NCBI GenBank assembly: GCA_032768795.1
Contig: CP136495.1
Span: 2,234,501 to 2,298,500 of the forward strand
DNA length: 64,000 bases
Reading direction: 5' to 3'
Source of the DNA: Tremella fuciformis
Lineage: Eukaryota > Basidiomycota > Tremellomycetes > Tremellales > Tremellaceae
Made by a program: the position numbers and the translations under genes. Below are positions 16,099 to 64,000 of the stretch, in pieces. The notes below the pieces were generated by a model that had not been told where the DNA came from, did no database searches, and saw only the letters and a list, made by a program, of their open reading frames with translations. Numbering within the stretch: the first letter of the stretch is position 1; every line of letters starts with the position of its first letter.

Positions 16099-16583
16099 GA
16101 GATGGCGGGGGCAAAGGCTTCATGGACAATGACCCGGGATACCAATCCATCCAGTACATCATCTGGTTACTATCCAGCATCATCATCATACACCGCCATG
16201 CATACGATAAAGATAAAGCGCCCTCCACTGATGACCCAAACTGTGTGTGAAAACTTCGTGTTTTGAGCTAATCTTGTACGAATGGTGGTCGTCCGAGCCA
16301 TCTAACTCAGAGACTAACGGACCAAGTGTGGCGGGTGCGATGCCGGACAGATTACGCCTTGCAACCGGCCCATCTCTATTGGGCCATACAGCCAGTGGTT
16401 ATACACGTATATGTGATGGCTAGCTCACGACCAAGCCGCTCGTACCTCTGTTCTCCTTCGCGGTTCGTGGAGGCTCAGTAAGCAGGTCAGCAGCATGGTA
16501 CATCAACGAGCTTTTTCGACTTGCTCGAACATCATGACTACAAAACGCCGCACAGGTGGACCATGTCTACAGATAAGACCACC
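16099..16583. other. Intergenic between convergent genes
   Basis: Lies between the convergent 3' ends of the WSC gene and the dioxygenase gene. No coding or structured element recognised. Confidence 0.4.
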
Positions 16584-21205: not shown

Positions 21206-21480
21206 GCGGTATGCCAATGAGGACCCGAGGGAGAACGGAAACGCCATCTCTAGCTAGTGATATCAGTCTATCTACGTTTTCTTCTCACTGGCTCGCCCGC
21301 CGGTATGGATCACAGTCGATGCAGCGGTGGATCACTCCACAGTCCTAGATGGTATGGCGTGATCGCATGCCATACACAATACCATCCGTCCGCCAGCTTG
21401 ACGTTGATACACATACGAGTAGAAATCTTTATTGTGGATAGCAGTGTGAAGACTTTGCACTTCGACAGCGCCTAACCAAG

Positions 21481-31624: not shown

Positions 31625-31650
31625 AACAGGTACGCTCACGCGTACCTGTT
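31625..31650. other. Perfect inverted repeat spanning the gag-pol stop codon
   Basis: AACAGGTACGC and GCGTACCTGTT form an 11-bp stem; the loop on the minus strand is GTGA, containing the TGA stop of gag-pol. It sits between the convergent gag-pol and antisense genes. Confidence 0.7.
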
Positions 31651-34600: not shown

Positions 34601-36888
34601 TATTCGGCAGGTAGCTCTGTCTCAGTAGGCGGTTCCGCCGTCGTAATGGCGGTGTAGAGCCACGCAGTGGCCTGGTCTGACGTCTTGTCTGTTGTGTCCC
34701 GTGGTGCTAGAGTTCTCGCGCTCCAGTCTACCACAGGCTGCACTTTGTCCAGAAAGGGCATGCCTAAGATCAAGTGTGCTATGCGTATCGGGGAGACTAT
34801 GAAGTCGGCGTGATAAGGTTCGAATCCCCTTCCCAGTAGGACGGTGAGCTGTACTCGGTGGGTTAAGAGTCCGTACTCGGATACCCTGCCATCCGCCATT
34901 ACCAATGGCGTTGGTCGTTTGAGTTTTGTCATGGGGAGGTGATGTCGAGCCACATACTCGTCGTCGACAAAGTTGGACGTCGCTCCCGTATCTAGGAGGG
35001 CCCTAGCGGTCTCTCCAGGGATTTGTGATAGGCCAATTGGGACGTTGAACAGCCTTGTAGGCGTTTCATAATTGGCGCGTACGCCGTCCTCTTTTGATGT
35101 TCTTTTGGACCCTTCGAGGGGTTCCGTTTTGGTTAAGTACAAGGCAGACGGATCTGCCCTGCACGTCGCCTTCCTAATGTAATTGCGTACTACGTTCTGT
35201 GTTTTAGCTACATACGTCTTCTGTTCCGCCTGTTCAGGCGTCAAATTCTTCTCGTTCCCCCCTTGAATTTCTTGATAGCCTAGATCCGGTATCACCTTGT
35301 GTAGACCTTTGTATTTGGCCATTACCCGGTTGAAACTGTCTCTCAAGTTTCTTTTCTGGGGCTCGCTTGGTGGAGTGAGTCTGACGTTCACTCTCTCTGT
35401 CGCCATCGAACCTTCTTGGCTGTTGACGTCTGCGTAATTGCCTGTTACGTGGTTCTCTGTGGTCTGATCGGTTGTGTCGGTTTGGGCTACGTTGATCCGG
35501 TGTGGCGGTAACTTGTTCTGTGGTCGAGTCCAACAGTTGTTGATCGTGTGGCCCATTTTCCCACAATAGGTGCAAGCCCCTGCCTCTATACGGGCCTTAC
35601 GTTCTTCCTCCGAGAGAGGTCCTCTCGGCTGTTGCGTGAACGTCCTGCCACTTTGAGGCTTAGGGGTTGTAGACTTGTTCGTCGTGCGTGGTGGTGACTC
35701 TCTGTTACTTGCAGTGTCCAATCCCGCTTTTGGGCGGAAATGCCCTCGTACTTGTTGACTAGGGGTGTTGAATCGGGTATTTCCTTGGTGTCGGCCCGGC
35801 GGGTTTGGTCCCTGAAATGGGTGCTTGGGGTGCAACGCACGGACTTCTCGGTCTGCGTCGTCAATAGACAGGGTACGCTCGACTAGGTCGTTGAAGTCGC
35901 TGAATGTAGGGCGTGGTCGTTGCGTCATGAGTTCGCGTTGCAGGTACTCACGCAATCCCTTATAAAAGGCCATGCACTGCGTATCCGGTGACTGATTGGT
36001 CCGTGCTAGGATAGTACGGAACTTTACTACGTACTCAGAGGCCGACATGTTGCCTTGTCTGAGTCGGTCCAGTTCGAAGTAGGCCGAGAATTCCTCATGG
36101 TGACGGCCAAAGGTTCGTCGAAGCTCGGTCATAAACCCTACCAGGGTGGTAGGTTCTTGATTGTTGTCGACTAGGCCAGTGTACCACTGCTCCGCCTCGT
36201 CGCGTAGGTAGCCAGAAGCAAAGATCACTTTGAGCTCTTCGGTCGGGTAGATAGGTGCTGCGATTCGCAGGTATCTTTCGACTTGGTGCACAAAAGCATC
36301 CAGCTTCAGTCGGTCTAAATCGCCTCTAAAGACATCCGGCTTCTTGATATTCTTGGCGGCCTCGGCGGCCACTTTGATGTCCACGGGTTGATTCAGCCCC
36401 GTAGTTGTCATGTACGGTTCTGTAGTCGACGTCCTCGGCTGTGTAGGTTCTCGGACAGGCTGTCTTCGTGCCTGCTCCATCTGTTGGAGCTGCATCTCGA
36501 TCCTAGTTCGTTGGTCGAGTAGCTCTTGATACGTGGGACCTTGGCTAAGGTGCGGGGGATTGCCCCGCACAAAAGGGGTAACTCGGGGAATTTCTTCCTC
36601 CGCTAGTCGAGTTGATAGATAGTGCGAACCATGTACTCCGTTCGTATCCACCGTGTACGTAGTCGGTGGAGCCTCGAGTGGAGCGGTTCTCGAGTCGCTG
36701 TTGCCAGTCGTCGGCTGTTCTTCGAGTGGTTGCTCGAGGTTGGACAACGGCGACGAGCGAGTAGTAGGTGACAAAGGTTGAGGGTGTATCTGAAGGCTTG
36801 TGTCTCTGTTATCGGCAGGTAGGGCCACCTGGGCGTCGATTCCCGGCGCTCCTCCTGTTGGATTCTGTCTCGTAGGTCTTCCTGACAT
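31636..36888 (-). CDS. Gag-Pol polyprotein of Ty3/gypsy chromovirus
   Basis: Single frame of about 1750 residues; the frame is open further upstream into the LTR, but ATG 36888 (MSGRPTRQNPTGG) is the first downstream of the primer-binding site. In order: gag capsid region (about 36330-35850); zinc knuckle C-TY-C-GKMG-H-TINN-C (35575); aspartic protease with LLDTGATSNFVDDEY (35000); reverse transcriptase with YVAVYLDDILVYSKD (34040); RNase H with LLETDASDYALGAILSH (33590); integrase with the HHCC finger and the D, D, E core (DRGAQYVSAFW near 32545); and a C-terminal chromodomain with YRIKWIGWPISDSTWEP (31760). No internal stop or frameshift seen, so the element may be autonomous. Cytoplasmic particles and nuclear integration are expected from the family. 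Confidence 0.93.
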   Translation of the reverse strand: MSGRPTRQNPTGGAPGIDAQVALPADNRDTSLQIHPQPLSPTTRSSPLSNLEQPLEEQPTTGNSDSRTAPLEAPPTTYTVDTNGVHGSHYLSTRLAEEEIPRVTPFVRGNPPHLSQGPTYQELLDQRTRIEMQLQQMEQARRQPVREPTQPRTSTTEPYMTTTGLNQPVDIKVAAEAAKNIKKPDVFRGDLDRLKLDAFVHQVERYLRIAAPIYPTEELKVIFASGYLRDEAEQWYTGLVDNNQEPTTLVGFMTELRRTFGRHHEEFSAYFELDRLRQGNMSASEYVVKFRTILARTNQSPDTQCMAFYKGLREYLQRELMTQRPRPTFSDFNDLVERTLSIDDADREVRALHPKHPFQGPNPPGRHQGNTRFNTPSQQVRGHFRPKAGLDTASNRESPPRTTNKSTTPKPQSGRTFTQQPRGPLSEEERKARIEAGACTYCGKMGHTINNCWTRPQNKLPPHRINVAQTDTTDQTTENHVTGNYADVNSQEGSMATERVNVRLTPPSEPQKRNLRDSFNRVMAKYKGLHKVIPDLGYQEIQGGNEKNLTPEQAEQKTYVAKTQNVVRNYIRKATCRADPSALYLTKTEPLEGSKRTSKEDGVRANYETPTRLFNVPIGLSQIPGETARALLDTGATSNFVDDEYVARHHLPMTKLKRPTPLVMADGRVSEYGLLTHRVQLTVLLGRGFEPYHADFIVSPIRIAHLILGMPFLDKVQPVVDWSARTLAPRDTTDKTSDQATAWLYTAITTAEPPTETELPAEYAHYKDVFDKGQADKLPEHRQFDHAIQLSSDKVPPAGPIYALSPREREELMAYLRENLDKGFIRESRSPAGAPVLFVKKKDGSLRLCVDYRKLNAMTIKNKYPLPLIGDVIDQIRGSTVFTKLDLRGAYNLVRIAEGDEWKTAFRTPFGQYEYLVMPFGLCNAPGSFQLFINHVFHDLLDKYVAVYLDDILVYSKDLEHHTRHVQEVLRRLREYKLFAKLSKCQFHSNEVEFLGFVLNKNGIKMDPKKVEAVQDWPTPTNLKETQSFVGFANFYRRFIRNFSVIAKSLHDLTKKGTPFQWGPKQQDAFDSLKRAMTTAPVLSHYDPNLPLLLETDASDYALGAILSHTYPDGTTRPIAYASRKMDPAELNYPVHDKEFLAIVYAFKSWRHYLEGTRVRVVVLSDHRSLEYFLTTKQLTRRQARWSEYMADFDFVIQYRPGKQATKPDALSRRPDYRPTDTKATTLSPELNAHNFKALLSSAQYLATRVEYKDPMAQEDFKGAMDVHEQQKYVALTESHPEEYKHKDGLFYYHDLPIVPEKQRTTVLIWAHNLPTAGHPGVAKTTSRLLARFWWPRMRRDVKTWVKHCGTCQKTKHTNQLQPGLLLDIPVAERPWSTVSTDYITKLPDSKGYTNISVWVDQLTKAAIFIPIDKLDAPTLAEAFLTKVYPRTGLPDRIISDRGAQYVSAFWRTVTSKLGCDLKFSTAYHPQTDGQTEIVNKWLGQYLRVYANYEQDDWSVLLPTAEFVYNTTVHGTTRMTPYDAWYGYTPRQNMTDPLGSSSHESEEGVTYTRRIFERFKYLQEQIKHARAQNKRQYDRKRRLQTFKVGDLVLLSARNYKGARTSAKLDNRWLGPFKVAAKVNDNAYKLHLPESYRIHDVINVEYLKPFYTSEEASTSQLQPTQSPVSDIVLDDNGYTYEAILDERMVKDKQGITSKHYRIKWIGWPISDSTWEPAAEVESDPAFTTMYDAYSSSESQSRRKRFVPNRYA

Positions 36889-36909
36889 ACCTGTCGTCCA
36901 CAAGTATGG

Positions 36910-36921
36910 GAAGAATGTATT
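36910..36921 (-). other. Primer-binding site, self-priming type
   Basis: Three bases inside the 5' LTR the minus strand reads AATACATTCTTC, which is fully complementary to GAAGAATGTATT within the LTR itself (37016-37027). This is the arrangement of Tf1/sushi-type elements, whose mRNA 5' end folds back to prime reverse transcription. No tRNA match was sought by computation. Confidence 0.65.
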
Positions 36922-36924
36922 AAC

Positions 36925-37122
36925 TGTCGGGGTCGGTGAACGCGAGTTGGTATGTGAGTGACTGCCTTGCTGGTCGACTGATATGCCAGGATGAGTTACC
37001 AGGTGACAGATGAATAATACATTCTTCGAAGAAGGTATCCTCTCCTTCTCAGTCTGTATATGTAGAGTTCTCACAGGTAGTCGGCTACTACGGACATGTC
37101 CGTGATGACGTATTCCATTACA
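36925..37122 (-). repeat. 5' LTR (198 bp)
   Basis: Identical by eye to 30167-30364. On the minus strand it precedes the primer-binding site and gag-pol. Confidence 0.93.
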
Positions 37123-47693: not shown

Positions 47694-47862
47694 GGGGGTA
47701 GTCTCTGACTTGTCTGAACGAGAGTGACTGAGGGTACTGAGGTTGTTGGGTTTGAACCAACTGTGTGACTTTGTACAAGGAAGTACAAGATACATCGCTG
47801 AAGAAGAAAAGCAATGTCAAACGAACTACAGGGTTTATATAGTCTACCTAGAGAAAATTACC
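47648..47862. other. LTR-like or unclassified sequence between transposon and subtelomere
   Basis: Begins tgtcacgctggggtcgg, a TGTCA start as in many LTRs, and contains tttatatagtc (about 47833), a TATA-like site. It is cut by the first TTAGGGG-linked repeat. No second copy is in the window, so the LTR idea is untested. Confidence 0.3.
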
Positions 47863-48139
47863 TTAGGGGTTACAGGCAGGTCCTGGGGGGGGGACTTTCT
47901 CGCGCATCGAGATTTTCAGAATTTTTTTTTGGATTCAAAAAGTTCGACAAAAAAGCTATTCGTAAATGTAATGACCTTCCCGATCGGGTAAAAACTGACG
48001 GATTTACGGGCATCCAAAGTTGGCTGGGTATTTGACTTTGGTTGGCTGTGACGCGGTCAGTAATTGGAATATTGAGTTGATTGTCGAAGTAAGTAGCCTA
48101 ATATGGTCCCAAATATAGCTGGGATGACTCTCGCATGCA
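47863..48139 (-). repeat. Subtelomeric element copy a, truncated
   Basis: Starts TTAGGGGTTACAGGCAGG on the plus strand and follows the 2460-bp unit's left end as far as gactctcgcatgca, where the next copy begins. Confidence 0.85.
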
Positions 48140-48820
48140 TTAGGGGTTACAGGGAGGTTTGGGGGGGGGGACTTTCTTGCGCATCGAGTTTTTCGAGAAT
48201 TTCTTTTTGGATTCAAAAAGTTCGACAAAAAAGCTTTTTGTAAATGTAATGACCTTCCCAATCGGGTAAAAACTGACGGGTTTACGGGCATCCGAAGTTG
48301 GCTGGGTATTTGACTTTGGTTGGCTGTGACATGGTCAGTAATCGGAATATTGAGTTGATTGTCAAAGTAAGTACCCTACTATGGTCTCAAATATATGTGG
48401 GTTGACTCTCACATGCATCCCTGACTTCACGTAAAACGGTCCAAGGGGGGACCCTTGGAGCTCATATGGCCCAAGGGGGGACCCTTGGAGTTTGCTGGTT
48501 GTGACTGAAATTATTTTGGTTATGTGAAGGTTGCTACTATACTCTATTTGACGAGCTGATTCTGAATCTCTAACCCATTCCCGGATCAGAGCGAAACTGG
48601 CGGAGTTAATCCCTCCGAAAGTCCAGTACGTCTGCCCAAGGGGGGACCCTTGCAGCTTTTTCCGGTGCTGGATAAATTTATTCTGCAACTCTAATGGCCG
48701 GTACTATACACTATTTGACGAGCTGATTAAGAATCTCTAACCCATTCCCAGATCAGAGCACACCTGGCGGAGTTAATCCCTCCGAAAGTCCAGTACGTCT
48801 GCCCAAGGGGGGACCCTAAC
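48140..48820 (-). repeat. Subtelomeric element copy b, truncated, diverged
   Basis: Starts TTAGGGGTTACAGGGAGG; about 680 bases including four CCAAGGGGGGACCCTTGG-type hairpins, the last one broken at the ggaccct junction to unrelated sequence. Confidence 0.83.
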
Positions 48821-49656
48821 AGTATTCTGCGGTTACTGGGCCCCCCCAGTAACTTTTATTTTGGACCTCCTCTCTTTGGAGCGAGTTACTGGGGTCCATA
48901 CCCGGGTCTACCCCCTGTTACCGGGGGTCTTTCTTGAAGAAGAGACGCAGTTCCCTCCAGCCATGGTCTCGGATTTGAGCTGGGAGCAACATGTGCGGAG
49001 AGATCAGCATTCGTGGAGAGAGAACATGGTCGGATGAAGTGTCTCCCGACTTCCACGAGGCCTCTGAGAAAAGTTACTGGGCCCCCCTTGTCTTTGGAGT
49101 GAGTTACTGGGGTCTGTACCCGGGTCTACCCCCAGTTACCGGGGTCCATTCTTGTAGAAGAGATGCTGCTCTTTCTGCCTCTGCGACTGGATCCGCTGCA
49201 GCCGTCCTGGTTGGGGAGATAGATGCATTCGTGGAAAAGTAGAGGTCCAAAAGGCAGCTTATCCACGAGCATCCTCCAGCTCCCGCTACACAGTCCCACG
49301 AGAGCCCTCCAGCTCCACGGTATCCACAAGCGTCCTCTGGCTCCACGGTACCCACGAGTTCCCTACAGCTCCACGGTCTCCACGAGCGCCCTCCTGCTCC
49401 ACGGTAGCCACCTTATCCACAATGTCCTCCCCTCAATGTCGCCTTGCCTCGGCCTCCTTGGCTGTATGAAGCCGCATAGCACGTCTTGTCCGCTTCGGCT
49501 TGCTCCATCTTGCCCTGGTCACCGCCATGTCCTTGTCTCCTTGTCATAGAGCCCTCCATCTCCAAGCCAACCCTGCTCCTTCATGCCTCATTGGAGGTCT
49601 CATTCCCGGACAGCATTCATAGCAAGCGCTTAGGGCCATCAGGGCGCCTGAGTCAC
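48821..49656. repeat. Subtelomeric segment X1, related to helicase upstream region
   Basis: Begins CCCTAACAGTATTCTGC plus a hairpin (GTTACTGGG / CCCAGTAAC, 48832-48853), like segment X2. Contains a repeated gttactggg block (48832, 49074) and, at 49260-49420, imperfect repeats with CCACGAG and CTCCACGG. Ends where a TTAGGGG repeat begins. No gene supported. Confidence 0.55.
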
Positions 49657-49934
49657 TAGGGGTTAGGGGGTTACAGGCAGGTCCTGGGGGGGGGGGACTT
49701 TCTCGCGCATCGAGATTTTTTGAAATTTTTTTTTGGATTCAAAAAGTTCGACAAAAGAGCTATTCGTAAATGTAATGATCTTCCCGATCGGGTAAAAACT
49801 GACGGATTTACGGGCATCCAAAGTTGGCTGGGTATTTGACTTTGGTTGGCTGTGACGCGGTCAGTAATTGGAATATTGAGTTGATTGTCGAAGTAAGTAG
49901 CCTAATATGGTCCCAAATATAGCTGGGATGACTC
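49657..49934 (-). repeat. Subtelomeric element copy c with interstitial telomere repeat
   Basis: Begins with telomere-type TAGGGGTTAGGGGGTTAC (49657-49674) and is cut after ggatgactc. Confidence 0.85.
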
Positions 49935-50132
49935 TTAGGGGTTACAGGCAGGTCTGGGGGGGGGGACTTTCTTGCGCATCGAGATTTTCGGAATTTTTTT
50001 TTTGGATTCAAAAAGTTCGACAAAAGAGCTATTCGTAAATGTAATGATCTTCCCGATCGGGTAAAAACTGACGGATTTACGGGCATCCAAAGTTGGCTGG
50101 GTATTTGACTTTGGTTGGCTGTGACGCAGTCA
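49935..50132 (-). repeat. Subtelomeric element copy d, truncated
   Basis: About 198 bases, from TTAGGGGTTACAGG to gtgacgcagtca, where copy e starts with GGGTTACAGG. Confidence 0.85.
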
Positions 50133-50606
50133 GGGTTACAGGGAGGTTTGGGGGGGGGGACTTTCTTGCGCATCGAGTTTTTCGAGAATTTCTTTTTGGA
50201 TTCAAAAAGTTCGACAAAAAAGCTTTTTGTAAATGTAATGACCTTCCCAATCGGGTAAAAACTGACGGGTTTACGGGCATCCGAAGTTGGCTGGGTATTT
50301 GACTTTGGTTGGCTGTGACATGGTCAGTAATCGGAATATTGAGTTGATTGTCAAAGTAAGTACCCTACTATGGTCTCAAATATATGTGGGTTGACTCTCA
50401 CATGCATCCCTGACTTCACGTAAAACGGTCCAAGGGGGGACCCTTGGAGCTCATATGGCCCAAGGGGGGACCCTTGGAGTTTGCTGGTTGTGACTGAAAT
50501 TATTTTGGTTATGTGAAGGTTGCTACTATACTCTATTTGACGAGCTGATTCTGAATCTCTAACCCATTCCCGGATCAGAGCGAAACTGGCGGAGTTAATC
50601 CCTAAC
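50133..50606 (-). repeat. Subtelomeric element copy e, truncated
   Basis: Nearly the same sequence as copy b, ending at gttaatccct, then CCCTAACAATATTCTGC begins segment X2. Confidence 0.85.
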
Positions 50607-51128
50607 AATATTCTGCAGTACTTGGACCCCCCCAAGTACTCAGTACTTGGACCCCTCCTTTGGTTTCGTGGGAGTACTTGGACCCCCCCTCCACGAATTC
50701 GTGGGAGTACTTGGACCCCCCATCCTCCAATTCGTGGGAGTACTTGGACCCCCCCTTCACTTTCGTGGGAGTACTTGGACCCCCCTCCACGAATTCGTGG
50801 GAGTCCTTGGACCGGATCCACGAATTTGTGGAGATACCTCGCTCTTTCCACGAAAACATTGGAGTACTCACCACGAAACCGGGGGACTACTTTCCACGAA
50901 ACCGTGGGACTACTTGCCCTTTTCCACGGATTTGCGGGAGTACTTTTGGTTTCCACGAGGGACCTCTGTCCACGAGCCCGTGGATGGTGTGCTTTCCACG
51001 GATTCCGCATCCCCCCACCATACAGATATAACCCCCTAAAACTCGGTCACCTCTTCACCACCTTTCATCTGTTTTTCCACCCTTTGTTTGCTACTGCTGC
51101 ATACCAGATACAACAGTGATCCAGAACA
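50607..51128 (+). promoter_or_regulatory. Segment X2: tandem CCACGAA / GTACTTGGACC array upstream of helicase gene
   Basis: Starts with a hairpin (AGTACTTGG / CCAAGTACT, 50617-50640). Five units of about 45 bases then repeat gtacttggacccccc and cacgaattcgtggga; the palindrome CCACGAATTCGTGG is complete at 50691-50704 and 50787-50800. Decayed ccacga units continue to about 51000. The helicase ATG follows at 51129, so this is its 5' region and possibly its control region. Confidence 0.6.
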
Positions 51129-54100
51129 ATGGACGACTCTCAGCCAGAGACAGACTGTGGAGATGAAATCCAGCTGCTGTCATGTTCTCCCACAGCACAC
51201 GGTGAGTGCATTCTTGGCTCTGCTCTGACTGACACTCAGACCAATCTTTCTATGACATTCCCCTGACCATACCTGAGGGGTTTGAGTCCCTTGGCTATGG
51301 GTATCATTCATTGCTCAAGTACTACACCTGCATGAAATGCAAGCAGGGAGTCAGGGGTGAACACCTTATAGGTCACCTCCTTGATTCTCACAACAAAAAG
51401 GTCGAGGATGAGGTGATCAAGGGGATGCTCTCTGCCTATCCGAGTCACCCTGGCCAGCATCCGGAGATCCCTGCTTTCCCCAATGGATTGCCAATCATAT
51501 CTCTCCCTCTGCTTGCCATCCAGCCCGGCCTGTCCTGCAACCTGTGCAGTTACCACTGCACTGCGACGAGCAGCATCAAGAATCACTTCACCACCAGTCA
51601 CAAAGGTCAACCTTATCACCGCAACCATACCAACACGGCTCTCCAAACGATCTACCACCAAGGCAACAGACAGTTCTTCCCTGTCCAGCCATCGGAAGAT
51701 GCGATCTCTGGGATCACGCCTTACTTGATGTTCCTCCGGTCACTCCCTCCTGTGGACAGATCGTCTATCATCAAGGAGGGGGCAGAACATGAGCAGGCCT
51801 CATGGATGGGAAGGCTTGGATGGTTCAAACATGTGGAAGGACAGGATGCCAAGGAGCTTGTCGGACTTGTGGCCAAACCTGGATCCGATGAGGAGTTGTT
51901 GCACAGGATGAAGAAGATGTGCAGGCAATACCTGATGGACATCGAGGAGAGGATCAAGAAGAACCCAGAGCAGTTGATCCTGCATCTGCTGAACTCTGAG
52001 ACACCCACAGAGTCAGTTCTTATTGCAGAGAGGAGCTGATGTCTCAGAGTCTCACACGAACCCTTCAAGGCTCTTCAGAACCAAGAGACCTTTGACAAAT
52101 ACAGCCTCCACTTCTGCAGGCTGTTCTGCTTCCTGATGAGGAAGGCCTGTGGGCGAGCGCACTCCTACCCCATCCAGGTCTCTGCAGAGCAGGTCAGGCT
52201 CTGTGAAGAAATGATCAAGATCCTGTCATCTGGGGAAGATCAACAGTCATTTGACACCGTGTTCCATGCTCTGGCGTACTCCCTGCTCACGACGTCTTCC
52301 TATCAAGCCATGGTGGATTCACACCTGTACCCGCTGATCTGCTTCAACACCCTCTCCAACCTGAAGCCGGACGGACACTTCAACTCTGTCACCGAGATGA
52401 CGCCCAAGATTGCCATGCTTCAGTGGGCCTTCAAGCTGGTGGTGTTCAAGCAGGTCCAGATGAGAGTGGATGAGGAGATTGTGAGCAGGACCTCTGATCT
52501 TGAGGAGTGAGTGATCGATACCCGAGGACAGGGCTGACGTCAGTCTGATGAAAGAGGAGATCTCCTTGCTCCACAACGGTCACATCTCCCCATTCTCCTG
52601 CCTGCTGTCGATCAAACATCTTGTCAACCACGTGGCCTATCACCAACCTGGTCTCCCCACCGTCTACTGGAGAGACAAGCAGAAGACACAGCTCGTCGTC
52701 AATGGGGAGCTGTTGAAGCTGGACAATCTGAGGAGTGGGGTGCATCAGCTGGAGAAAGAGCTGTCAGAGTACTTTGAGGAGCATCTCCTTCTTGGCCTGC
52801 CCATCCAAAGCTTCAACTATCCGGATCCTGCTCAGGTGGTGGATCACCTCCCAGAGGATGAGGTCGGCTACAACTTTTTGGAGGATGACGCCAACCCATT
52901 CAAGGAGAACAAGTGGACCTTGGTCCGGCAGATCCTAGAGGATGACGTGCTCAGAGGTGTGTTCTTAGGGGTTAGGGGGTGCTGACAGTCCAGACAAGTT
53001 CATCCCATACAGGACAGAAGACACACTGTTCTGGAACCCACACGAGATCAGGACGTACCTCCAGAGATGTTCCGGCTTCATGGACAAGCTCATCTGCCTC
53101 ATCCACCTGACCTATGGTGCACCCGCAAGGAGGACGGAGCTTCTCAGTCACAAGCTCACCAACACCCAAGCCGGACTGAGGAACATCTTCTTCATCAATG
53201 GCAGGATCGTCCTCTTGGGCAGATATCACAAGGGAAGCAACCAGACCTCTCTTGACAAGGTGATCCTCTTGGGGGGTGTAACATCAGGTGCTGACTGCAG
53301 ACACTGCCAAGGTTCCTGCCCTGCTCGCTGACGAGGATGCTCACACTCTACCTGGCGTACGTGAGACCGTTCGAGGTGTTTGGCCTGTCAAAGATCGACG
53401 ACATCCAAGGATCGAGGCTGCACTCTTCGCACCTTTTCACCACCAACGGCAGCATCATGAAGCAAGATCACTTCAGCTCGATGTTGAGCTCTGTGACGCA
53501 TTCTTATCTGGGAGCGAGGATCAACCCGTCCACCTGGAGGCATGCCTCCATCGCCATCTTCAAATCCAGGAGCATCAGGAATCAGCTGGAGCATGGAGAG
53601 GCTGTGCAGGACATCCAAGCAGGTCACACCACCCGGACGGCAGAGGAGCACTATGCCCTGAACAAGGAGGACATCATGTCCATGGGGGAGTCCACCTTCC
53701 TGCTGTTCTTTCAGAGCAGCACGGAATGGCAGAACCTGCTTGGGTATTTCCTCCAAGGACAGGAGGAGGATCAAGCTGTGGCGGGGGTGGAGATGGAGGG
53801 CCTCCTGGCCAGGATCTCTGCCAAGCTGGACCAGATGGACAGGGAGCAGGGGGACAGGCAGGCCATCAGAGGGGACCAAGCACCATCTCAAGCGTCTGAC
53901 AAGATGGGGCAGCTCATCGCAAGACTGGAGAGCAAAGTCGACAGGCTGGGAGCAAAGCTGCACGAGTTCATGGAGATGCCGCCACCGGCACACAACCTTT
54001 CGAGCTCGAGGAGACTGCAACCGCTGGGCCTGTCAAAGACGAGCACAAGCACCGGCACCAGCACCGGTTCCTCGTCCTCCCCCTTGGGACTCAGCCTCAT

Positions 54101-55973
54101 CAGCCTGAGCAACACTTCCACCAGCACCAAGGTGACCAGCAACCCAGAGATCACCAAGCTCAGCGCCAACCTGGTCACCGGTCTACAGAAGCTGTTTGGA
54201 TCTGGGGCCAAGTGGAGGAGTGATTGGCAGGAGCGAGGATGTCAGCTCGTGCTGGACAAGGCCACCAACCTGCTCATGGTCGGTCCCACCTCTGGGGGGA
54301 AGAGTCTGCTCTGGCTTGTGCCGGTCATGAGCGGATTGGAGAGGGGGATGGTGACGGTGGTCATTGTGCCACTGTCAGCACTGTTGCAGGACATCAAGCA
54401 CAAGCTCGAGTCCCATGGGGTGAGCCATGAGCTCTGGAGCCCCTCTGCCTCTGGCGAACGCTCCAAGATCATCCTCATCTCCGTGGAGAACTGTGTGAAT
54501 GACCAGTTTCACAAATGGATCAAGAGGATCAAGATCGTGAGTGTGTCTTTGGAGAGCACACCTGCTGACGCCCAGGCAAGGGTCGTGTTTGAGGAAGCAC
54601 ACATCCCCCTCACGTCCTTCACCTACAGGGCTCAGATGGACGGCCTTGCCAAGCTGAGGGCTATCCCTGCTCCAAAAGTGCTCATCACTGCGACCTGCCC
54701 ACCTACTCTGAGCGATCAGCTGCTCGGCAAGTTCCACCTTTCTCAAGTCACCCAACACAGGACGTCCACCAACAGGGGGGAGATCCACTACTCTTGCACC
54801 TCACCCGTCGTCAACAGCGAGAACATTGCCGTCCTGGCCAGGCAAGCGGTCGAGCAGATCTCCCCTCATCTCCACCCTCGAGATCAAATCCTGTTGTTCT
54901 GCAGGAGCAAGGTGGACTGCCAGATGGTGTCCGAAGCTCTGGACTGCCCTCAACACCACTCTGATCTTGGGGACAAGAACAACATCCTCAAGGAGTTCAG
55001 AGCAGAGATCTTGGGGAGGGTGCTGGCGTGCACGAGTGGACTGGGTGCGGGTGTGGACCTGCCCCTTGTTCGTGTGACCATCCACCTGGGAGAGCCGAGC
55101 AACCTGGTCGACGGTGTGCAGGAGATGGGCAGGGTGGGCAGGAAAGGCCAGGAGTCATGGTGTCACATCATCAGACTCGAGCTGTGGTGGGGCAATCCAG
55201 GACTCGGAGCAGACTACCTGCAGAAGATGCTCAACGGCAAGCAGTGCCTCAGGGCTGGGATCACAAAGTTCATGGATGGGGAGGAGAGAAAGTGTGGGGG
55301 GAGGGATGAGATGTGCTCCAGGTGTGGTCACTCGCCATTCATGACTTCACCCCTGTCGACCCCTCTGACGACGACGGCTGGGACCCGGACGACGACGTCA
55401 CTGTCCAGCCTGGAGGGCAGACAGTCCAGGTTCAGAAGCTCCCAGAGCCTGATGCCAAGCCCTTCGCCTAGGACCTCTCTCCTGAGGGATGCCGCATCCC
55501 AACAGCAAAAGGAAGAGTCGAGGTCCGAGTTGATGAGGGAGCTACACCTGCAGGTGCAAAAGCTCAAGGGGGCATGCCCCAAGTGTCTGGCTCTGGGGCT
55601 CTTTGAGACCCACCAGATCCAGAAGTGCAGCCCACCAGGCTGGCTCCCCGACGTCGCCCAACGCTTCAGGAAGGGGACCAAGTTCCATGGGAACAAGCAG
55701 ATGTGCTTCACCTGCTGGTTTCCCTGGCCATCCGGAGACTCATGGTTCCACAAGGGATCCAGTGGCAGGTGCTGCATCTACCCTTCATTCTTGCCAGAGC
55801 TCATGGCCTCTGCCTTGGAGTCTGATGAGTATCAGGTTTTCGCGCGGGCGGCGGGCTTGGAGATTGAGGATTGGCAGAGCTGGCTTGGGGGAGTGAGCAA
55901 TGTGCCCATCCACCATGTCTGGGTGGCAGCTCATTGGTTCCTTGCCAGGGTCATAGACCAGAACAACCTGTAG
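51129..55973 (+). CDS. Telomere-linked helicase: C2H2 fingers + tyrosine-recombinase-like + RecQ-like helicase
   Basis: Six exons (51129-51201, 51240-52011, 52048-52506, 52544-52960, 52989-53259, 53301-55973) total 4665 bases, exactly 1555 codons. Order of parts: two C2H2-like fingers (YTCMKCKQGVRGEHLIGH and SCNLCSYHCTATSSIKNH); a region with YGAPARRTEL, STWRHASIAI and QAGHTTRTAEEHYA, which fits the Arg, His/Arg and His...Tyr boxes of tyrosine recombinases; a linker; then an SF2 helicase with NLLMVGPTSGGKS (Walker A), VVFEEAH (motif II, Glu for the usual first Asp), KVLITATCPP (III), ILLFCRSKVDCQ (IV), ACTSGLGAGVDLP (V) and QEMGRVGRKG (VI); and a Cys-rich tail. RecQ-like telomere-linked helicases are known beside fungal telomeres. 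Nuclear DNA role expected. The gene ends 65 bases before telomere repeats. No disabling change seen. Confidence 0.82.
52965..52979 (+). repeat. Telomere-type repeat within helicase intron 4
   Basis: TTAGGGGTTAGGGGG makes up over half of the 28-base intron 52961-52988. Confidence 0.75.
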
Positions 55974-56037
55974 TCTAGTCTCCTATGCTGCTCGTGCTTT
56001 TTGTGCTTTTCGTGGTTCTCGTGCTTTTCGTGGTTTT
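55974..56037. other. Short T-rich repeats after helicase gene
   Basis: Imperfect repeats of cgtgctttt / cgtggtttt run from the stop codon region to the telomere-type repeat at 56038. Confidence 0.5.
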
Positions 56038-56329
56038 TTAGGGGTTAGGGGGTTACAGGCAGGTCCTGGGGGGGGGACTTTCTCGCGCATCGAGATTTTT
56101 TGAAATTTTTTTTTGGATTCAAAAAGTTCGACAAAAGAGCTATTCGTAAATGTAATGATCTTCCCGATCGGGTAAAAACTGACGGATTTACGGGCATCCA
56201 AAGTTGGCTGGGTATTTGACTTTGGTTGGCTGTGACGCGGTCAGTAATTGGAATATTGAGTTGATTGTCGAAGTAAGTAGCCTAATATGGTCCCAAATAT
56301 ATCTGGGATGACTCTCGCATGCATCCCTG

Positions 56330-57960
56330 ACTTCATGTAAAACGGTCCAAGGGGGGACCCTTGGAGCTCATATGGCCCAAGGGGGGACCCTTGGAGTTTG
56401 CTGGTTGTGAGTGAAATTATTTTTGTGATGTGAAGGGTGCTACTATACTCTATTTGACGAGCTGATTAAGAATCTCTAACCCATTCCCGGATCGGAGCGA
56501 AACTGGCGGAGTTAATCCCTCCGAAAGACCAGTACGTCTGCCCAAGGGGGGACCCTTGTAGCTTTTTCCGGTGCTGGATAAAATTATTCTGCAAGTCTAA
56601 TGGTTGGTACTATACTCAGTTTGACGAGCTGATTCCAAATCTCTCACTCGTTTTCCGATCGGAGCAAAACTGGCCGAGCTATCCCCACCCGTAACCCAGC
56701 TCGACTGCCCAAGGGGGGACCCTTGTAGCTTTTTCCGGTGCTGGATAAAATTATTCTGCAAGTCTAATGGTTGGTACTATACTCAGTTTGACGAGCTGAT
56801 TCCAAATCTCTCACTCGTTTTCCAATCGGAGCAAAACTGGCCGAGCTAACCCCACCCGTAACCCAGCTCGACTGCCCAAGGGGGGACCCTTGTAGCTTTT
56901 TCCGGTGCTGGATAAATTTATTCTGCAAGTCTAAAGGTTGGTACTATACACTATTTGACGAGCTGATCAAGAATCTCTAACCCATTACCAGATCAGAGCA
57001 GAACTGGCGGAGTTAATCCCTCCGAAAGACCAGTACGTCTGCCCAAGGGGGGACCATTGCAGCTTTTTCCGGCGCTGGATAAATTTATTCTGCGAGTCTA
57101 ATGGTCGGCACTATACACTATTTGACAAGCTGATTAAGAATCTCTAACCCATTTACTGATCGGAGCAAAAGTGGCGGAGCTATGTGCCACTTAGCATGTA
57201 TTATGTGTAACCCAATATAGGCAAGTAAAACTCAGCAGACCTTCACCCCTCTGGTTTGACACAGTGGTTAGTGTCATTTCGGCCCGCTGTAGGGTGCTGT
57301 CTGCCCTAATTTGGCTGTGACTAGGTTCGATTCCTGGTTGGGGTACACTTTTTGGATCTTATGTCTGTCAAATGGCTTATTGACTTTTGCCCCCCTTGAT
57401 GACTGTCTTCTTCGATTGTAATGCTTACTACTATACTCAGTTTGGCGAGCTGATTCTGAATCTCTCACCCGTTTTCCGATCGGAGCAGAACTGGCGGAGC
57501 TACCCCCTCCCGTAACCGAGCACACCTGCGCAAGGGGGGACCCTTGCAGCTTTTTCCGGCGCTGGATAAATTTATTCTGCAAGTCTAATGGTTGGTACTA
57601 TACTCTATTCAAAGAGCTGATTCTGAATCTCTCACCCGTTTTCTGAACGGAGCGAAACTGGCCGAGCTATCCCCACACGTAACCAAGCTTGACTGCCCAA
57701 GGGGGGACCCTTGGAGCTTTTTCCGCAGCTGGATAAAATTATTTGGCAAGTCTAATGCCCATTAGCATACACAATTTGACGAGCTGATTCCAAATCTCTC
57801 ACTTGTTTTCTAATTGGAGCAAAACTGGCGGAGCTATCCCCACCCGTAACCCGGCACAACTGCCCAAGGGGGGACCCTTGGAGCTTTTTCCGCAGTTGGA
57901 TAAATTTATTTCGCAAGTCTAATGCCCATTACTATACACAGTTTGACAAGCTGGTTCCGA
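56330..57960. repeat. 166-169-bp sub-repeats with CCAAGGG-GGGA-CCCTTGG hairpin (unit 1)
   Basis: The hairpin core recurs at about 56347, 56375, 56540, 56709, 56875, 57041, 57529, 57695 and 57864. From 56540 on the spacing is 166-169 bases, apart from a gap filled by the tRNA-like block. Each sub-repeat also has a common gctggataaa-ttattctgcaag and ttgacgagctgatt block. The same layout recurs in units 2 and 3. Confidence 0.85.
57250..57353 (+). ncRNA. tRNA-like Pol III element, copy 1
   Basis: TGACACAGTGG (57257-57267) fits the A box at 10 of 11 positions and GGTTCGATTCC (57324-57334) is a perfect B box. GACAC/GTGTC forms a D-like stem, CTAGG/CCTGG a T stem, and TTTTT (57349-57353) a Pol III stop. 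The acceptor stem and anticodon are not canonical, so it is not a working tRNA; a tRNA-derived SINE-like promoter is more likely. Confidence 0.5.
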
Positions 57961-58010
57961 ATCTCTGACTCATTTCTCACTTACTTGAGAACTGAGAGAG
58001 TCAAATGCAT

Positions 58011-58454
58011 CTATCTACCAAACAACTCATCTGCAGTTACTAAGTTCTCATAATGCTCACTTGCTAAGTAAAGGCCAATACTATCCTCACCTTCTCCTAT
58101 CTCATACCACTGATGGCTGCCATCATTATGCCGCTTGTAGACTCTGATCTTGACATTGTATGCCCCACTCAAGGCCTTAAGCATCAAGTCGTCACCCCAT
58201 GTCCCCGCCTTGCCCATACGCCTGAGGTATGCACCCATTGACTCGCTTTGACTCTCTAGAAATGGGAAGAAGTCATCTTGGAACTTCCGAGCATAAGCCA
58301 CTGCTGCCCGCCTTGCTCCGAGATGTGTCAAGCGTGGTATTCCAAGTGCTTTGACTATTGCGGCGAACATGCAATTACCATCTCCCTTGATCCAGTTCGT
58401 ACGGTAGAATACCGGCTGACCGTCAAGTCGAGTAAGCTGATTACGACTTGGCAA
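58011..58454 (-). CDS. OTU-like cysteine protease domain, copy 1
   Basis: 147 residues counted from a TTG codon; no ATG lies before the catalytic motif. The frame is open to the element's 5' edge, where TAA from the adjoining CCCCTAA closes it. WIKGDGNCMFAAI is the OTU nucleophile block (D-G-N-C, Cys about residue 28). TWGDDLMLKALS follows, then IRVYKRHND and YLASEHYENL, where the His (about 134) is the general base. The family removes ubiquitin or ubiquitin-like tags. Catalytic Cys, Asp and His are all kept, yet the start is missing, so this is the C-terminal part of a longer protein or needs a non-ATG or fused start. Identical in all three units. Confidence 0.68.
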   Translation of the reverse strand: MPSRNQLTRLDGQPVFYRTNWIKGDGNCMFAAIVKALGIPRLTHLGARRAAVAYARKFQDDFFPFLESQSESMGAYLRRMGKAGTWGDDLMLKALSGAYNVKIRVYKRHNDGSHQWYEIGEGEDSIGLYLASEHYENLVTADELFGR

Positions 58455-59709
58455 TTCGAATCGTCCTTGGACAAATGGCTGAGTCGCTTCCTGCTGGGTT
58501 GAGACTTAGGGGTTACAGGCAGGTCCTGGGGGGGGGACTTTCTCGCGCATCGAGATTTTTTGAAATTTTTTTTTGGATTCAAAAAGTTCGACAAAAGAGC
58601 TATTCGTAAATGTAATGATCTTCCCGATCGGGTAAAAACTGACGGATTTACGGGCATCCAAAGTTGGCTGGGTATTTGACTTTGGTTGGCTGTGACGCGG
58701 TCAGTAATTGGAATATTGAGTTGATTGTCGAAGTAAGTAGCCTAATATGGTCCCAAATATATCTGGGATGACTCTCGCATGCATCCCTGACTTCATGTAA
58801 AACGGTCCAAGGGGGGACCCTTGGAGCTCATATGGCCCAAGGGGGGACCCTTGGAGTTTGCTGGTTGTGAGTGAAATTATTTTTGTGATGTGAAGGGTGC
58901 TACTATACTCTATTTGACGAGCTGATTAAGAATCTCTAACCCATTCCCGGATCGGAGCGAAACTGGCGGAGTTAATCCCTCCGAAAGACCAGTACGTCTG
59001 CCCAAGGGGGGACCCTTGTAGCTTTTTCCGGTGCTGGATAAAATTATTCTGCAAGTCTAATGGTTGGTACTATACTCAGTTTGACGAGCTGATTCCAAAT
59101 CTCTCACTCGTTTTCCGATCGGAGCAAAACTGGCCGAGCTATCCCCACCCGTAACCCAGCTCGACTGCCCAAGGGGGGACCCTTGTAGCTTTTTCCGGTG
59201 CTGGATAAAATTATTCTGCAAGTCTAATGGTTGGTACTATACTCAGTTTGACGAGCTGATTCCAAATCTCTCACTCGTTTTCCAATCGGAGCAAAACTGG
59301 CCGAGCTAACCCCACCCGTAACCCAGCTCGACTGCCCAAGGGGGGACCCTTGTAGCTTTTTCCGGTGCTGGATAAATTTATTCTGCAAGTCTAAAGGTTG
59401 GTACTATACACTATTTGACGAGCTGATCAAGAATCTCTAACCCATTACCAGATCAGAGCAGAACTGGCGGAGTTAATCCCTCCGAAAGACCAGTACGTCT
59501 GCCCAAGGGGGGACCATTGCAGCTTTTTCCGGCGCTGGATAAATTTATTCTGCGAGTCTAATGGTCGGCACTATACACTATTTGACAAGCTGATTAAGAA
59601 TCTCTAACCCATTTACTGATCGGAGCAAAAGTGGCGGAGCTATGTGCCACTTAGCATGTATTATGTGTAACCCAATATAGGCAAGTAAAACTCAGCAGAC
59701 CTTCACCCC

Positions 59710-59813
59710 TCTGGTTTGACACAGTGGTTAGTGTCATTTCGGCCCGCTGTAGGGTGCTGTCTGCCCTAATTTGGCTGTGACTAGGTTCGATTCCTGGTTG
59801 GGGTACACTTTTT
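59710..59813 (+). ncRNA. tRNA-like Pol III element, copy 2
   Basis: Same sequence as copy 1, 2460 bases on; B box at 59784-59794. Confidence 0.5.
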
Positions 59814-60470
59814 GGATCTTATGTCTGTCAAATGGCTTATTGACTTTTGCCCCCCTTGATGACTGTCTTCTTCGATTGTAATGCTTACTACTATACTCAG
59901 TTTGGCGAGCTGATTCTGAATCTCTCACCCGTTTTCCGATCGGAGCAGAACTGGCGGAGCTACCCCCTCCCGTAACCGAGCACACCTGCGCAAGGGGGGA
60001 CCCTTGCAGCTTTTTCCGGCGCTGGATAAATTTATTCTGCAAGTCTAATGGTTGGTACTATACTCTATTCAAAGAGCTGATTCTGAATCTCTCACCCGTT
60101 TTCTGAACGGAGCGAAACTGGCCGAGCTATCCCCACACGTAACCAAGCTTGACTGCCCAAGGGGGGACCCTTGGAGCTTTTTCCGCAGCTGGATAAAATT
60201 ATTTGGCAAGTCTAATGCCCATTAGCATACACAATTTGACGAGCTGATTCCAAATCTCTCACTTGTTTTCTAATTGGAGCAAAACTGGCGGAGCTATCCC
60301 CACCCGTAACCCGGCACAACTGCCCAAGGGGGGACCCTTGGAGCTTTTTCCGCAGTTGGATAAATTTATTTCGCAAGTCTAATGCCCATTACTATACACA
60401 GTTTGACAAGCTGGTTCCGAATCTCTGACTCATTTCTCACTTACTTGAGAACTGAGAGAGTCAAATGCAT

Positions 60471-60914
60471 CTATCTACCAAACAACTCATCTGCAGTTAC
60501 TAAGTTCTCATAATGCTCACTTGCTAAGTAAAGGCCAATACTATCCTCACCTTCTCCTATCTCATACCACTGATGGCTGCCATCATTATGCCGCTTGTAG
60601 ACTCTGATCTTGACATTGTATGCCCCACTCAAGGCCTTAAGCATCAAGTCGTCACCCCATGTCCCCGCCTTGCCCATACGCCTGAGGTATGCACCCATTG
60701 ACTCGCTTTGACTCTCTAGAAATGGGAAGAAGTCATCTTGGAACTTCCGAGCATAAGCCACTGCTGCCCGCCTTGCTCCGAGATGTGTCAAGCGTGGTAT
60801 TCCAAGTGCTTTGACTATTGCGGCGAACATGCAATTACCATCTCCCTTGATCCAGTTCGTACGGTAGAATACCGGCTGACCGTCAAGTCGAGTAAGCTGA
60901 TTACGACTTGGCAA
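60471..60914 (-). CDS. OTU-like cysteine protease domain, copy 2
   Basis: Identical translation to copy 1, again open to the unit edge with no early ATG. Confidence 0.66.
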   Translation of the reverse strand: MPSRNQLTRLDGQPVFYRTNWIKGDGNCMFAAIVKALGIPRLTHLGARRAAVAYARKFQDDFFPFLESQSESMGAYLRRMGKAGTWGDDLMLKALSGAYNVKIRVYKRHNDGSHQWYEIGEGEDSIGLYLASEHYENLVTADELFGR

Positions 60915-60965
60915 TTCGAATCGTCCTTGGACAAATGGCTGAGTCGCTTCCTGCTGGGTTGAGAC

Positions 60966-61120
60966 TTAGGGGTTACAGGCAGGTCCTGGGGGGGGGACTT
61001 TCTCGCGCATCGAGATTTTTTGAAATTTTTTTTTGGATTCAAAAAGTTCGACAAAAGAGCTATTCGTAAATGTAATGATCTTCCCGATCGGGTAAAAACT
61101 GACGGATTTACGGGCATCCA
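60966..61120 (-). repeat. Truncated partial unit between units 2 and 3
   Basis: Only the first 155 bases of the unit, to gggcatcca, where unit 3 begins with GGGTTACAGG. Confidence 0.9.
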
Positions 61121-62320
61121 GGGTTACAGGCAGGTCCTGGGGGGGGGACTTTCTCGCGCATCGAGATTTTTTGAAATTTTTTTTTGGATTCAAAAAGTTC
61201 GACAAAAGAGCTATTCGTAAATGTAATGATCTTCCCGATCGGGTAAAAACTGACGGATTTACGGGCATCCAAAGTTGGCTGGGTATTTGACTTTGGTTGG
61301 CTGTGACGCGGTCAGTAATTGGAATATTGAGTTGATTGTCGAAGTAAGTAGCCTAATATGGTCCCAAATATATCTGGGATGACTCTCGCATGCATCCCTG
61401 ACTTCATGTAAAACGGTCCAAGGGGGGACCCTTGGAGCTCATATGGCCCAAGGGGGGACCCTTGGAGTTTGCTGGTTGTGAGTGAAATTATTTTTGTGAT
61501 GTGAAGGGTGCTACTATACTCTATTTGACGAGCTGATTAAGAATCTCTAACCCATTCCCGGATCGGAGCGAAACTGGCGGAGTTAATCCCTCCGAAAGAC
61601 CAGTACGTCTGCCCAAGGGGGGACCCTTGTAGCTTTTTCCGGTGCTGGATAAAATTATTCTGCAAGTCTAATGGTTGGTACTATACTCAGTTTGACGAGC
61701 TGATTCCAAATCTCTCACTCGTTTTCCGATCGGAGCAAAACTGGCCGAGCTATCCCCACCCGTAACCCAGCTCGACTGCCCAAGGGGGGACCCTTGTAGC
61801 TTTTTCCGGTGCTGGATAAAATTATTCTGCAAGTCTAATGGTTGGTACTATACTCAGTTTGACGAGCTGATTCCAAATCTCTCACTCGTTTTCCAATCGG
61901 AGCAAAACTGGCCGAGCTAACCCCACCCGTAACCCAGCTCGACTGCCCAAGGGGGGACCCTTGTAGCTTTTTCCGGTGCTGGATAAATTTATTCTGCAAG
62001 TCTAAAGGTTGGTACTATACACTATTTGACGAGCTGATCAAGAATCTCTAACCCATTACCAGATCAGAGCAGAACTGGCGGAGTTAATCCCTCCGAAAGA
62101 CCAGTACGTCTGCCCAAGGGGGGACCATTGCAGCTTTTTCCGGCGCTGGATAAATTTATTCTGCGAGTCTAATGGTCGGCACTATACACTATTTGACAAG
62201 CTGATTAAGAATCTCTAACCCATTTACTGATCGGAGCAAAAGTGGCGGAGCTATGTGCCACTTAGCATGTATTATGTGTAACCCAATATAGGCAAGTAAA
62301 ACTCAGCAGACCTTCACCCC

Positions 62321-62424
62321 TCTGGTTTGACACAGTGGTTAGTGTCATTTCGGCCCGCTGTAGGGTGCTGTCTGCCCTAATTTGGCTGTGACTAGGTTCG
62401 ATTCCTGGTTGGGGTACACTTTTT
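62321..62424 (+). ncRNA. tRNA-like Pol III element, copy 3
   Basis: Same sequence as copies 1 and 2; B box at 62395-62405. Confidence 0.5.
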
Positions 62425-63081
62425 GGATCTTATGTCTGTCAAATGGCTTATTGACTTTTGCCCCCCTTGATGACTGTCTTCTTCGATTGTAATGCTTACT
62501 ACTATACTCAGTTTGGCGAGCTGATTCTGAATCTCTCACCCGTTTTCCGATCGGAGCAGAACTGGCGGAGCTACCCCCTCCCGTAACCGAGCACACCTGC
62601 GCAAGGGGGGACCCTTGCAGCTTTTTCCGGCGCTGGATAAATTTATTCTGCAAGTCTAATGGTTGGTACTATACTCTATTCAAAGAGCTGATTCTGAATC
62701 TCTCACCCGTTTTCTGAACGGAGCGAAACTGGCCGAGCTATCCCCACACGTAACCAAGCTTGACTGCCCAAGGGGGGACCCTTGGAGCTTTTTCCGCAGC
62801 TGGATAAAATTATTTGGCAAGTCTAATGCCCATTAGCATACACAATTTGACGAGCTGATTCCAAATCTCTCACTTGTTTTCTAATTGGAGCAAAACTGGC
62901 GGAGCTATCCCCACCCGTAACCCGGCACAACTGCCCAAGGGGGGACCCTTGGAGCTTTTTCCGCAGTTGGATAAATTTATTTCGCAAGTCTAATGCCCAT
63001 TACTATACACAGTTTGACAAGCTGGTTCCGAATCTCTGACTCATTTCTCACTTACTTGAGAACTGAGAGAGTCAAATGCAT

Positions 63082-63525
63082 CTATCTACCAAACAACTCA
63101 TCTGCAGTTACTAAGTTCTCATAATGCTCACTTGCTAAGTAAAGGCCAATACTATCCTCACCTTCTCCTATCTCATACCACTGATGGCTGCCATCATTAT
63201 GCCGCTTGTAGACTCTGATCTTGACATTGTATGCCCCACTCAAGGCCTTAAGCATCAAGTCGTCACCCCATGTCCCCGCCTTGCCCATACGCCTGAGGTA
63301 TGCACCCATTGACTCGCTTTGACTCTCTAGAAATGGGAAGAAGTCATCTTGGAACTTCCGAGCATAAGCCACTGCTGCCCGCCTTGCTCCGAGATGTGTC
63401 AAGCGTGGTATTCCAAGTGCTTTGACTATTGCGGCGAACATGCAATTACCATCTCCCTTGATCCAGTTCGTACGGTAGAATACCGGCTGACCGTCAAGTC
63501 GAGTAAGCTGATTACGACTTGGCAA
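63082..63525 (-). CDS. OTU-like cysteine protease domain, copy 3
   Basis: Identical translation to copies 1 and 2, same missing start. Confidence 0.66.
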   Translation of the reverse strand: MPSRNQLTRLDGQPVFYRTNWIKGDGNCMFAAIVKALGIPRLTHLGARRAAVAYARKFQDDFFPFLESQSESMGAYLRRMGKAGTWGDDLMLKALSGAYNVKIRVYKRHNDGSHQWYEIGEGEDSIGLYLASEHYENLVTADELFGR

Positions 63526-63576
63526 TTCGAATCGTCCTTGGACAAATGGCTGAGTCGCTTCCTGCTGGGTTGAGAC

Positions 63577-64000
63577 TTAGGGGTTACAGGCAGGTCCTGG
63601 GGGGGGGACTTTCTCGCGCATCGAGATTTTTTGAAATTTTTTTTTGGATTCAAAAAGTTCGACAAAAGAGCTATTCGTAAATGTAATGATCTTCCCGATC
63701 GGGTAAAAACTGACGGATTTACGGGCATCCAAAGTTGGCTGGGTATTTGACTTTGGTTGGCTGTGACGCGGTCAGTAATTGGAATATTGAGTTGATTGTC
63801 GAAGTAAGTAGCCTAATATGGTCCCAAATATATCTGGGATGACTCTCGCATGCATCCCTGACTTCATGTAAAACGGTCCAAGGGGGGACCCTTGGAGCTC
63901 ATATGGCCCAAGGGGGGACCCTTGGAGTTTGCTGGTTGTGAGTGAAATTATTTTTGTGATGTGAAGGGTGCTACTATACTCTATTTGACGAGCTGATTAA
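63577..64000 (-). repeat. 2460-bp subtelomeric unit 4, cut by window end
   Basis: First 424 bases of another unit, starting TTAGGGGTTACAGG; the array continues past the window. Confidence 0.9.

Follow-up and report, generated by a model that had tools for sequence, protein, structure and literature searches.

Repeated units attached to telomere repeats have been described at the chromosome ends of several eukaryotes, and a unit of Tremella fuciformis, the subject of this work, resembles each of them in part. MoTeR1 and MoTeR2 of Magnaporthe oryzae are head-to-tail copies at chromosome ends with half to more than 20 telomere repeats between them; repeated truncations, identically truncated arrays and block copying are reported for them (PMC7367193), and all these traits have counterparts in the Tremella unit. 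CNL1 of Cryptococcus, whose host group is likely related to the host of our unit, similarly forms subtelomeric arrays flanked by TAACCCCC repeats and shows 5' truncation (PMC12810828). Telomere motifs on both sides and co-localized telomere-linked helicases are common to the unit and the FoTeRs of Fusarium oxysporum (PMC12857005). With Terminons and telomeric Penelope-like elements it shares a 3' end on G-rich repeats, 5' ends cut by telomere repeats and host genes between copies (PMC6431247). We studied the unit in a window of 64,000 nucleotides (GCA_032768795.1, contig CP136495.1, positions 2,234,501 to 2,298,500, forward strand) and in the rest of the assembly. We think it somewhat probable that it is a gene-bearing subtelomeric unit spread from end to end by DNA copying seeded at telomere repeats.

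MoTeR1 encodes a reverse transcriptase (RT), and its 5' and 3' ends recur in MoTeR2 (PMC7367193), whereas no RT was found in the unit copies read (the longest of about 6 kb; most right contig ends in small part or not at all), the long ones among them carrying a gene for a protein with an N-terminal domain (N-domain) and an OTU domain. The CNL1 open reading frame (ORF), of about 2.5 kb and with an RT domain close to the R2 group (PMC12810828), is not seen in these copies either, and FoTeRs, unlike the unit, are reported to carry RT and REL endonuclease domains (PMC12857005). Terminons are described as having RT and a hammerhead motif (PMC6431247), neither of which was found in the unit copies examined. 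Since RT was sought in the copies read and not found, we do not class the unit as a MoTeR, Cnl1 or FoTeR element and, with the hammerhead missing too, not as a Terminon.

Roll-and-spread in Kluyveromyces lactis, in which one sequence spread to many ends as identical tandem units of telomere and subtelomere, was described in telomerase or capping mutants (PMC3486848), whereas T. fuciformis encodes telomerase and its unit bears a conserved gene and is cut at many points. Nevertheless, identical tandem units that include the telomere tract, and the same multi-unit block at different ends, are found here as in K. lactis. Y' elements of yeast are another case of identical tandem telomere and subtelomere units with one sequence at many ends. 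Both of their borders are constant and the helicase lies inside the element, whereas the distal border of our unit is variable and the helicase lies in a separate block.

Structure and distribution of the unit

The genome comprises 28.14 Mb in 11 contigs (C1 to C11, 22 ends), and the window corresponds to C6:2234501-2298500. Each copy read follows the same layout: cut DNA, a telomere tract of 5-70 nt ending in GGTTA, and then the unit, which opens with CAGGCAGG or CAGGGAGG and extends in the direction of the contig end. The tract precedes 68 of the 68 copies read, one of them being the internal copy at C9:414130. The start pattern GGTTACAGGVAGGTY has 104 matches in 28.1 Mb (58 on the plus and 46 on the minus strand) and its reversed control none, so the unit starts exceed chance. 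Among the 100 starts listed, 95 are no more than 21 kb away from a contig end and are directed outward, and 20 of the 22 ends are covered. C7 left has no start among these 100; by the strand counts, the four unlisted starts are on the plus strand. The five other listed starts are C4:269295, C5:360772, C9:414130, C9:418709 and the bare 15-mer at C6:110121. Thus, the geometry that an earlier note had proposed from the window, a constant 3' end of the minus strand on telomere repeats with variable 5' truncation, is right, and the constant 3' end is CCTGTAACC. These 95 starts also show placement at chromosome ends with uniform polarity.

Ten GGGTTACAGG starts were found in the window, where at least eight copies had been noted, all on the plus strand: GGTTACAGG is located at 47868, 48145, 49669, 49940, 50134, 56051, 58511, 60971, 61122 and 63582. 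Telomere phase continues through GGTTA at the unit starts, which places the constant boundary at TTA|CAGG. The distal ends are at 48139, 48817, 49934, 50132, 50603, 58505, 60965, 61120 and 63576, and the tenth copy exits the window; of the ends given in the earlier note, 48139, 49934, 50132 and 61120 stand, while 48820 and 50606 are corrected to 48817 and 50603. The latter two are joined to a second repeat family (CCT|AACARTATTCTGC) and not to telomere repeats.

Copy 1 (47863-48139, 277 nt including the TTAGGGG seed) has single-copy DNA beyond a Tc1-like ORF as its proximal flank. Copy 2 (48140-48817, 678 nt) belongs to an older lineage, is cut at GGACCCT and is joined to a block starting AACAGTATTCTGC. 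Copies 3 (49659-49934) and 4 (49935-50132), with the seeds GGGGTTAGGGGGTTA and TTAGGGGTTA, are followed by copy 5 (50133-50603), which is separated from copy 4 by GGGTTA alone and is cut at AATCCCT, where AACAATATTCTGC follows; over its whole length of 471 nt it matches 48144-48614 at 100% identity. Copy 6 (56038-58505, with its telomere tract) forms the first 2460-nt period, across which copy 7 (58506-60965) has no mismatch to it. They are followed by copy 8 (60966-61120, 155 nt including the seed), copy 9 (61121-63576) and copy 10 (63577-64000), which continues past the window. At the start of copy 9 (61121), as at 50133, just GGGTTA of telomere remains.

Some units lie away from the contig ends. 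The pair C9:414130 (plus) and 418709 (minus) and the locus C4:269.3-273.6 kb consist of inward-facing units with interstitial telomere tracts of at most four repeats, and we read them as relics of end-to-end chromosome fusions. A divergent lineage within C4 (about 600-3600 of the sequence L041, from that locus) starts with GGTTACACGCCCGTCC after telomere repeats; its ends form an inverted pair, and between them lies an N-domain gene that is about 40% identical, with the match limited to residues 98-578 of 750. At C11 left (about 17150-17414, oriented) a 264-nt interstitial telomere tract is followed by a unit fragment without the start; the arrangement resembles the joining of a complete telomere to a broken end. 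For the Kwoniella and Cryptococcus species covered by one report, no arrays of two or more telomere repeats are described beyond the chromosome ends (PMC11185503).

Identical arrays and truncation points

Tandem neighbours of equal length (periods of 851, 881, 2460 and 2768 nt) show no mismatch in seven of seven pairs, telomere tract included. Whole blocks are also common to different ends: the multi-unit stretch C1 left 8624-16460 equals C6 right 14499-22335 (oriented) over 7838 columns with no mismatches and two gaps, and C3 left 12836-15834 equals C5 left 16216-19214 over 2999 nt at 100% identity. Letter-identical neighbours and multi-unit blocks shared between ends argue for copying at the DNA level, and on these alignments both look like products of en-bloc DNA copying. 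Repeated identical truncations together with their telomere tracts would not be expected from independent insertions.

The perfect tandem periods would also suit unequal crossing-over between telomere seeds as the sole cause, or an assembly artefact, and some contig ends call for caution in this respect. The sizes of C1, C5 and C6 (8650000, 2357500 and 2302500) are all multiples of 500, and C6 ends 4 kb past the window, inside the unit array and without a telomere; these ends may therefore be assembly cuts. However, the arrays at C1, C3, C5, C9 and C10 left continue into a terminal telomere of 190-270 nt, and many truncations followed by new telomere repeats, with copies on 20 of 22 ends, exceed mere exchange. 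We thus regard crossing-over alone or an artefact as very improbable. An unbroken TTAGGGG/TTAGGGGG run of 184-270 nt is present at eight of the 11 left contig ends and a broken run at C11 left, while C6 left and C8 left are masked; the published motif for Cryptococcus and Kwoniella is TAAC(4,5) (PMC11185503). The genome encodes TERT, as judged by a match to the TERT RNA-binding domain (E 3.0e-33).

The truncation points were compared by placing the copies with an exact 14-mer. In this way 50 of the 68 copies were assigned to 26 distinct junctions at 25 positions, and 18 were dropped as older lineages, AACA-family joins, or masked or contig-cut copies. The nearest of these points is 16 nt after the start and the farthest more than 5 kb from it. 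Truncated units run into new TTAGGGG(G) repeats, with an overlap of 0-5 nt (mean 1.5) at the 24 junctions with a known continuation; this mean leaves aside the junctions C9 at 5286 and C2 at 5764, where the overlap is not meaningful because the continuation is not known, and it is 1.5 with them included as well. At C1 left, the junction of the first copy falls within the ORF of a Ty3-type polyprotein, as would be expected of a healed break.

The N-domain/OTU gene and the search for a reverse transcriptase

Long copies contain a 750-aa ORF on the minus strand, reading centromere-ward. Its C-terminal part matches the OTU domain (PF02338, E 4.4e-12; E 4.3e-12 for the C2 copy), while the N-domain of about 500 aa matched no Pfam family. 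Full 750-aa copies are present at C9 left (two), C9 right, C10 right and C2 left, and C4 left has an open frame of 871 aa. The largest right-end unit without an OTU match, 5.3 kb at C2 right, holds the N-domain gene. Other lineages of the gene, about 38-45% identical in the longer matches, occur at further ends and inside C4 and C9. In all matches near contig ends the gene reads centromere-ward, except at C10:21338, where it has the opposite direction. In the window, a 164-aa 3' fragment with the GDGNC motif lies on the minus strand at 58014-58505 and is repeated at 60474-60965 and 63085-63576.

Among three close copies the ratio of nonsynonymous to synonymous substitution rates (dN/dS) is 0.125-0.194, a fourth (C7) being saturated at synonymous sites; the values are approximate since the three copies are mosaic. 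They show, as far as sequence comparison can, that the gene is under purifying selection. The long units too are, to judge by their alignments, mosaic. The last 627 columns of the C10 right and C2 left units contain four mismatches and 36 gap positions, and the identity of the C9 and C2 copies varies between 78.9 and 99.8% per 400-column step, being lowest in the tandem-repeat part.

One explanation is that the unit is an independent mobile element and that its enzyme is the undescribed N-domain protein, either alone or together with OTU, which would cut or prime at telomere repeats and so bring about insertion at ends. The divergence of the lineages within one genome, mostly near ends, the low dN/dS and relatives of the protein in Kwoniella heveanensis and Tremella mesenterica, among others, agree with it, as does the C4 lineage, which also begins TTACA right after telomere repeats. 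However, many copies are too short to contain the gene, which may be a passenger, and although an OTU fold is seen at the C terminus in the AlphaFold model of a relative, fold and family comparison assigned no known fold or enzymatic family to the N-domain, the quality of the model being only moderate. We consider this explanation quite unlikely. It is also doubtful, if somewhat less so, that the unit represents a new class of telomere-colonising mobile element with a single conserved gene, whose undescribed product of about 500 aa (OTU-fused in some lineages), and not an RT of the element itself, would bring about or assist the joining of the fixed end to telomere repeats.

The earlier note had taken the unit for a telomere-specific non-LTR (long terminal repeat) retroelement, non-autonomous or 5'-truncated, and had stated that no RT is present in the window. 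The latter is wrong: a Ty3-type chromovirus polyprotein ORF (RVT_1, RNase H, integrase and chromodomain) lies at 31636-37074 on the minus strand, about 11 kb from the nearest unit and not part of it. Two further Ty3-type RTs do lie beside units: one belongs to the polyprotein into which the first C1-left copy is joined, the other to a plus-strand element (gag, aspartyl protease and RT) 4.9 kb beyond the internal start C5:360772. Both of these are of LTR type by their domains, and that of C5 is opposite to the gene of the unit, so neither is the predicted telomere-targeting RT. No RVT_1 match was obtained in 100 of 106 de-duplicated ORFs of at least 120 aa from the unit-bearing regions read (the other six, spanning a fetch boundary, were unscanned), and no RT with REL endonuclease was found in the long copies read. 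In a genome-wide RVT_1 search, 150 of 339 candidates were scored, and near contig ends none of the matches listed was found beyond a unit start on its distal side. Within this coverage an RT-bearing relative, as the note expected, is not supported, the long copies carrying the N-domain/OTU gene instead, although a Cnl1- or MoTeR-type RT may lie elsewhere in the genome; the geometry of a telomere-targeted element stands, and the diagnosis of a retroelement lacks support.

A search with Rfam models gave no hammerhead at E values up to 5 in 10.8 kb of the window (47800-58600), nor up to E 1 in the loci L010 (C2 left), L017 and L036, and the last 150 nt of the putative minus-strand RNA are not unusually structured (z -0.76, -0.34 and 0.64).

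Proposed spread of the unit and its neighbours

Two ways of spread have mainly to be weighed. In a telomere-primed retroelement of MoTeR2, Cnl1 or Terminon type, an exposed G-rich end would prime synthesis on a minus-strand RNA ending in CCUGUAACCCC, and the copies would be 5'-truncated and non-autonomous, with RT supplied in trans or lost. It would suit the polarity, the constant 3' end and the variable 5' truncation, as well as the seeds of 5-8 nt and the very short copies. Terminons, moreover, are described as joining through reverse-complement telomere repeats at their 3' end in head-to-tail arrays, and pieces of 6 kb as 3' fragments of elements of up to 40 kb (PMC6431247). The unit too may have a part lying 5' of what its longest copies (about 6 kb) include. 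On the other side stand the lack of RVT_1 in the ORFs scanned, the N-domain gene of the 5.3-kb C2-right unit, the absence of a hammerhead from the regions searched, the ordinary folding of the RNA end and the movement of arrays as blocks. We therefore hold this origin to be rather unlikely.

Arrays, missing RT, missing hammerhead and unremarkable folding of the RNA end favour a DNA route; long copies with a conserved gene and no RT in the copies read likewise make spread by DNA copying likely. For the copying of the subtelomeric unit from telomere seeds we infer the following steps from sequence. A broken or eroded end would be healed by telomerase with a few repeats, and its short G-rich 3' end would anneal to an interstitial telomere tract of another subtelomere or of an excised circle. 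The unit would then be copied outward by break-induced or rolling-circle replication; synthesis would often halt early, and the new end would be healed again. Healing followed by outward copying would account for a fixed start, a ragged distal side and new telomere repeats, as well as for block copying and for junctions with DNA of any kind, the Ty3 ORF of C1 left being an example. The unit may gain from this as a selfish passenger.

Several observations weigh against copying from telomere seeds. Seven of the 25 truncation positions lie at most 200 nt from the start (P 2.9e-5 against a uniform distribution over 5286 nt, P 0.0016 over 2757 nt), a skew that could stem from repeated erosion or from any form of abortive synthesis, on RNA templates too. 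The telomere seed is just 5-8 nt in 11 of the 68 copies, a short length if ordinary homologous recombination is to act. Reverse transcription primed by telomeres would yield the same geometry, and an RNA-primed start suits the copies and seeds that are shortest. Finally, comparable structures in Magnaporthe and rotifers are produced by retroelements.

The unit is not the only repeated sequence at these ends. The second family begins in the window at 48818 and 50604: a block starting AACAGTATTCTGC, with further subtelomeric DNA, occupies 48818-49658, and an AACA-type start with a telomere-linked helicase block extends from 50604 to the tract TTAGGGGTTAGGGGG (50604-56037), both on the plus strand. 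CCTAACARTATTCTGC has 32 matches in the genome against none for VAACARTATTCTGCRG; 29 of the 32 are near contig ends in one polarity and three are internal. Next to the CCTAACARTATTCTGC end lies a stem-loop with coordinated sequence changes across three subfamilies, and an exact stem of 6-9 nt is kept in seven of the eight distinct ends read. By these sequence features, the family has the look of a site-specific element whose end is structured. Inside the helicase block, an ORF with an OrsD domain (PF12013, E 6.8e-07) is located at 51311-52039 and a helicase ORF (DEAD and Helicase_C) at 53337-55973, both on the plus strand. C4 left, C6 right and C7 left encode the same helicase protein (100% identity), and partial copies occur at C4:91919 and near C11 right; given this identity at three ends, the helicase block seems to spread too.

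Arrays in which one end is fixed on telomere repeats and the other is ragged are usually read as telomeric retroelements. The unit of T. fuciformis has the same architecture with no RT found in the copies read, together with a gene under apparent selection, block copying and a genome that encodes telomerase. It can thus now be tested whether telomere-seeded recombination alone suffices for a selfish gene to persist and multiply at chromosome ends, and what share of the 'telomeric retroelement' signature is really due to recombination is likewise open to test.

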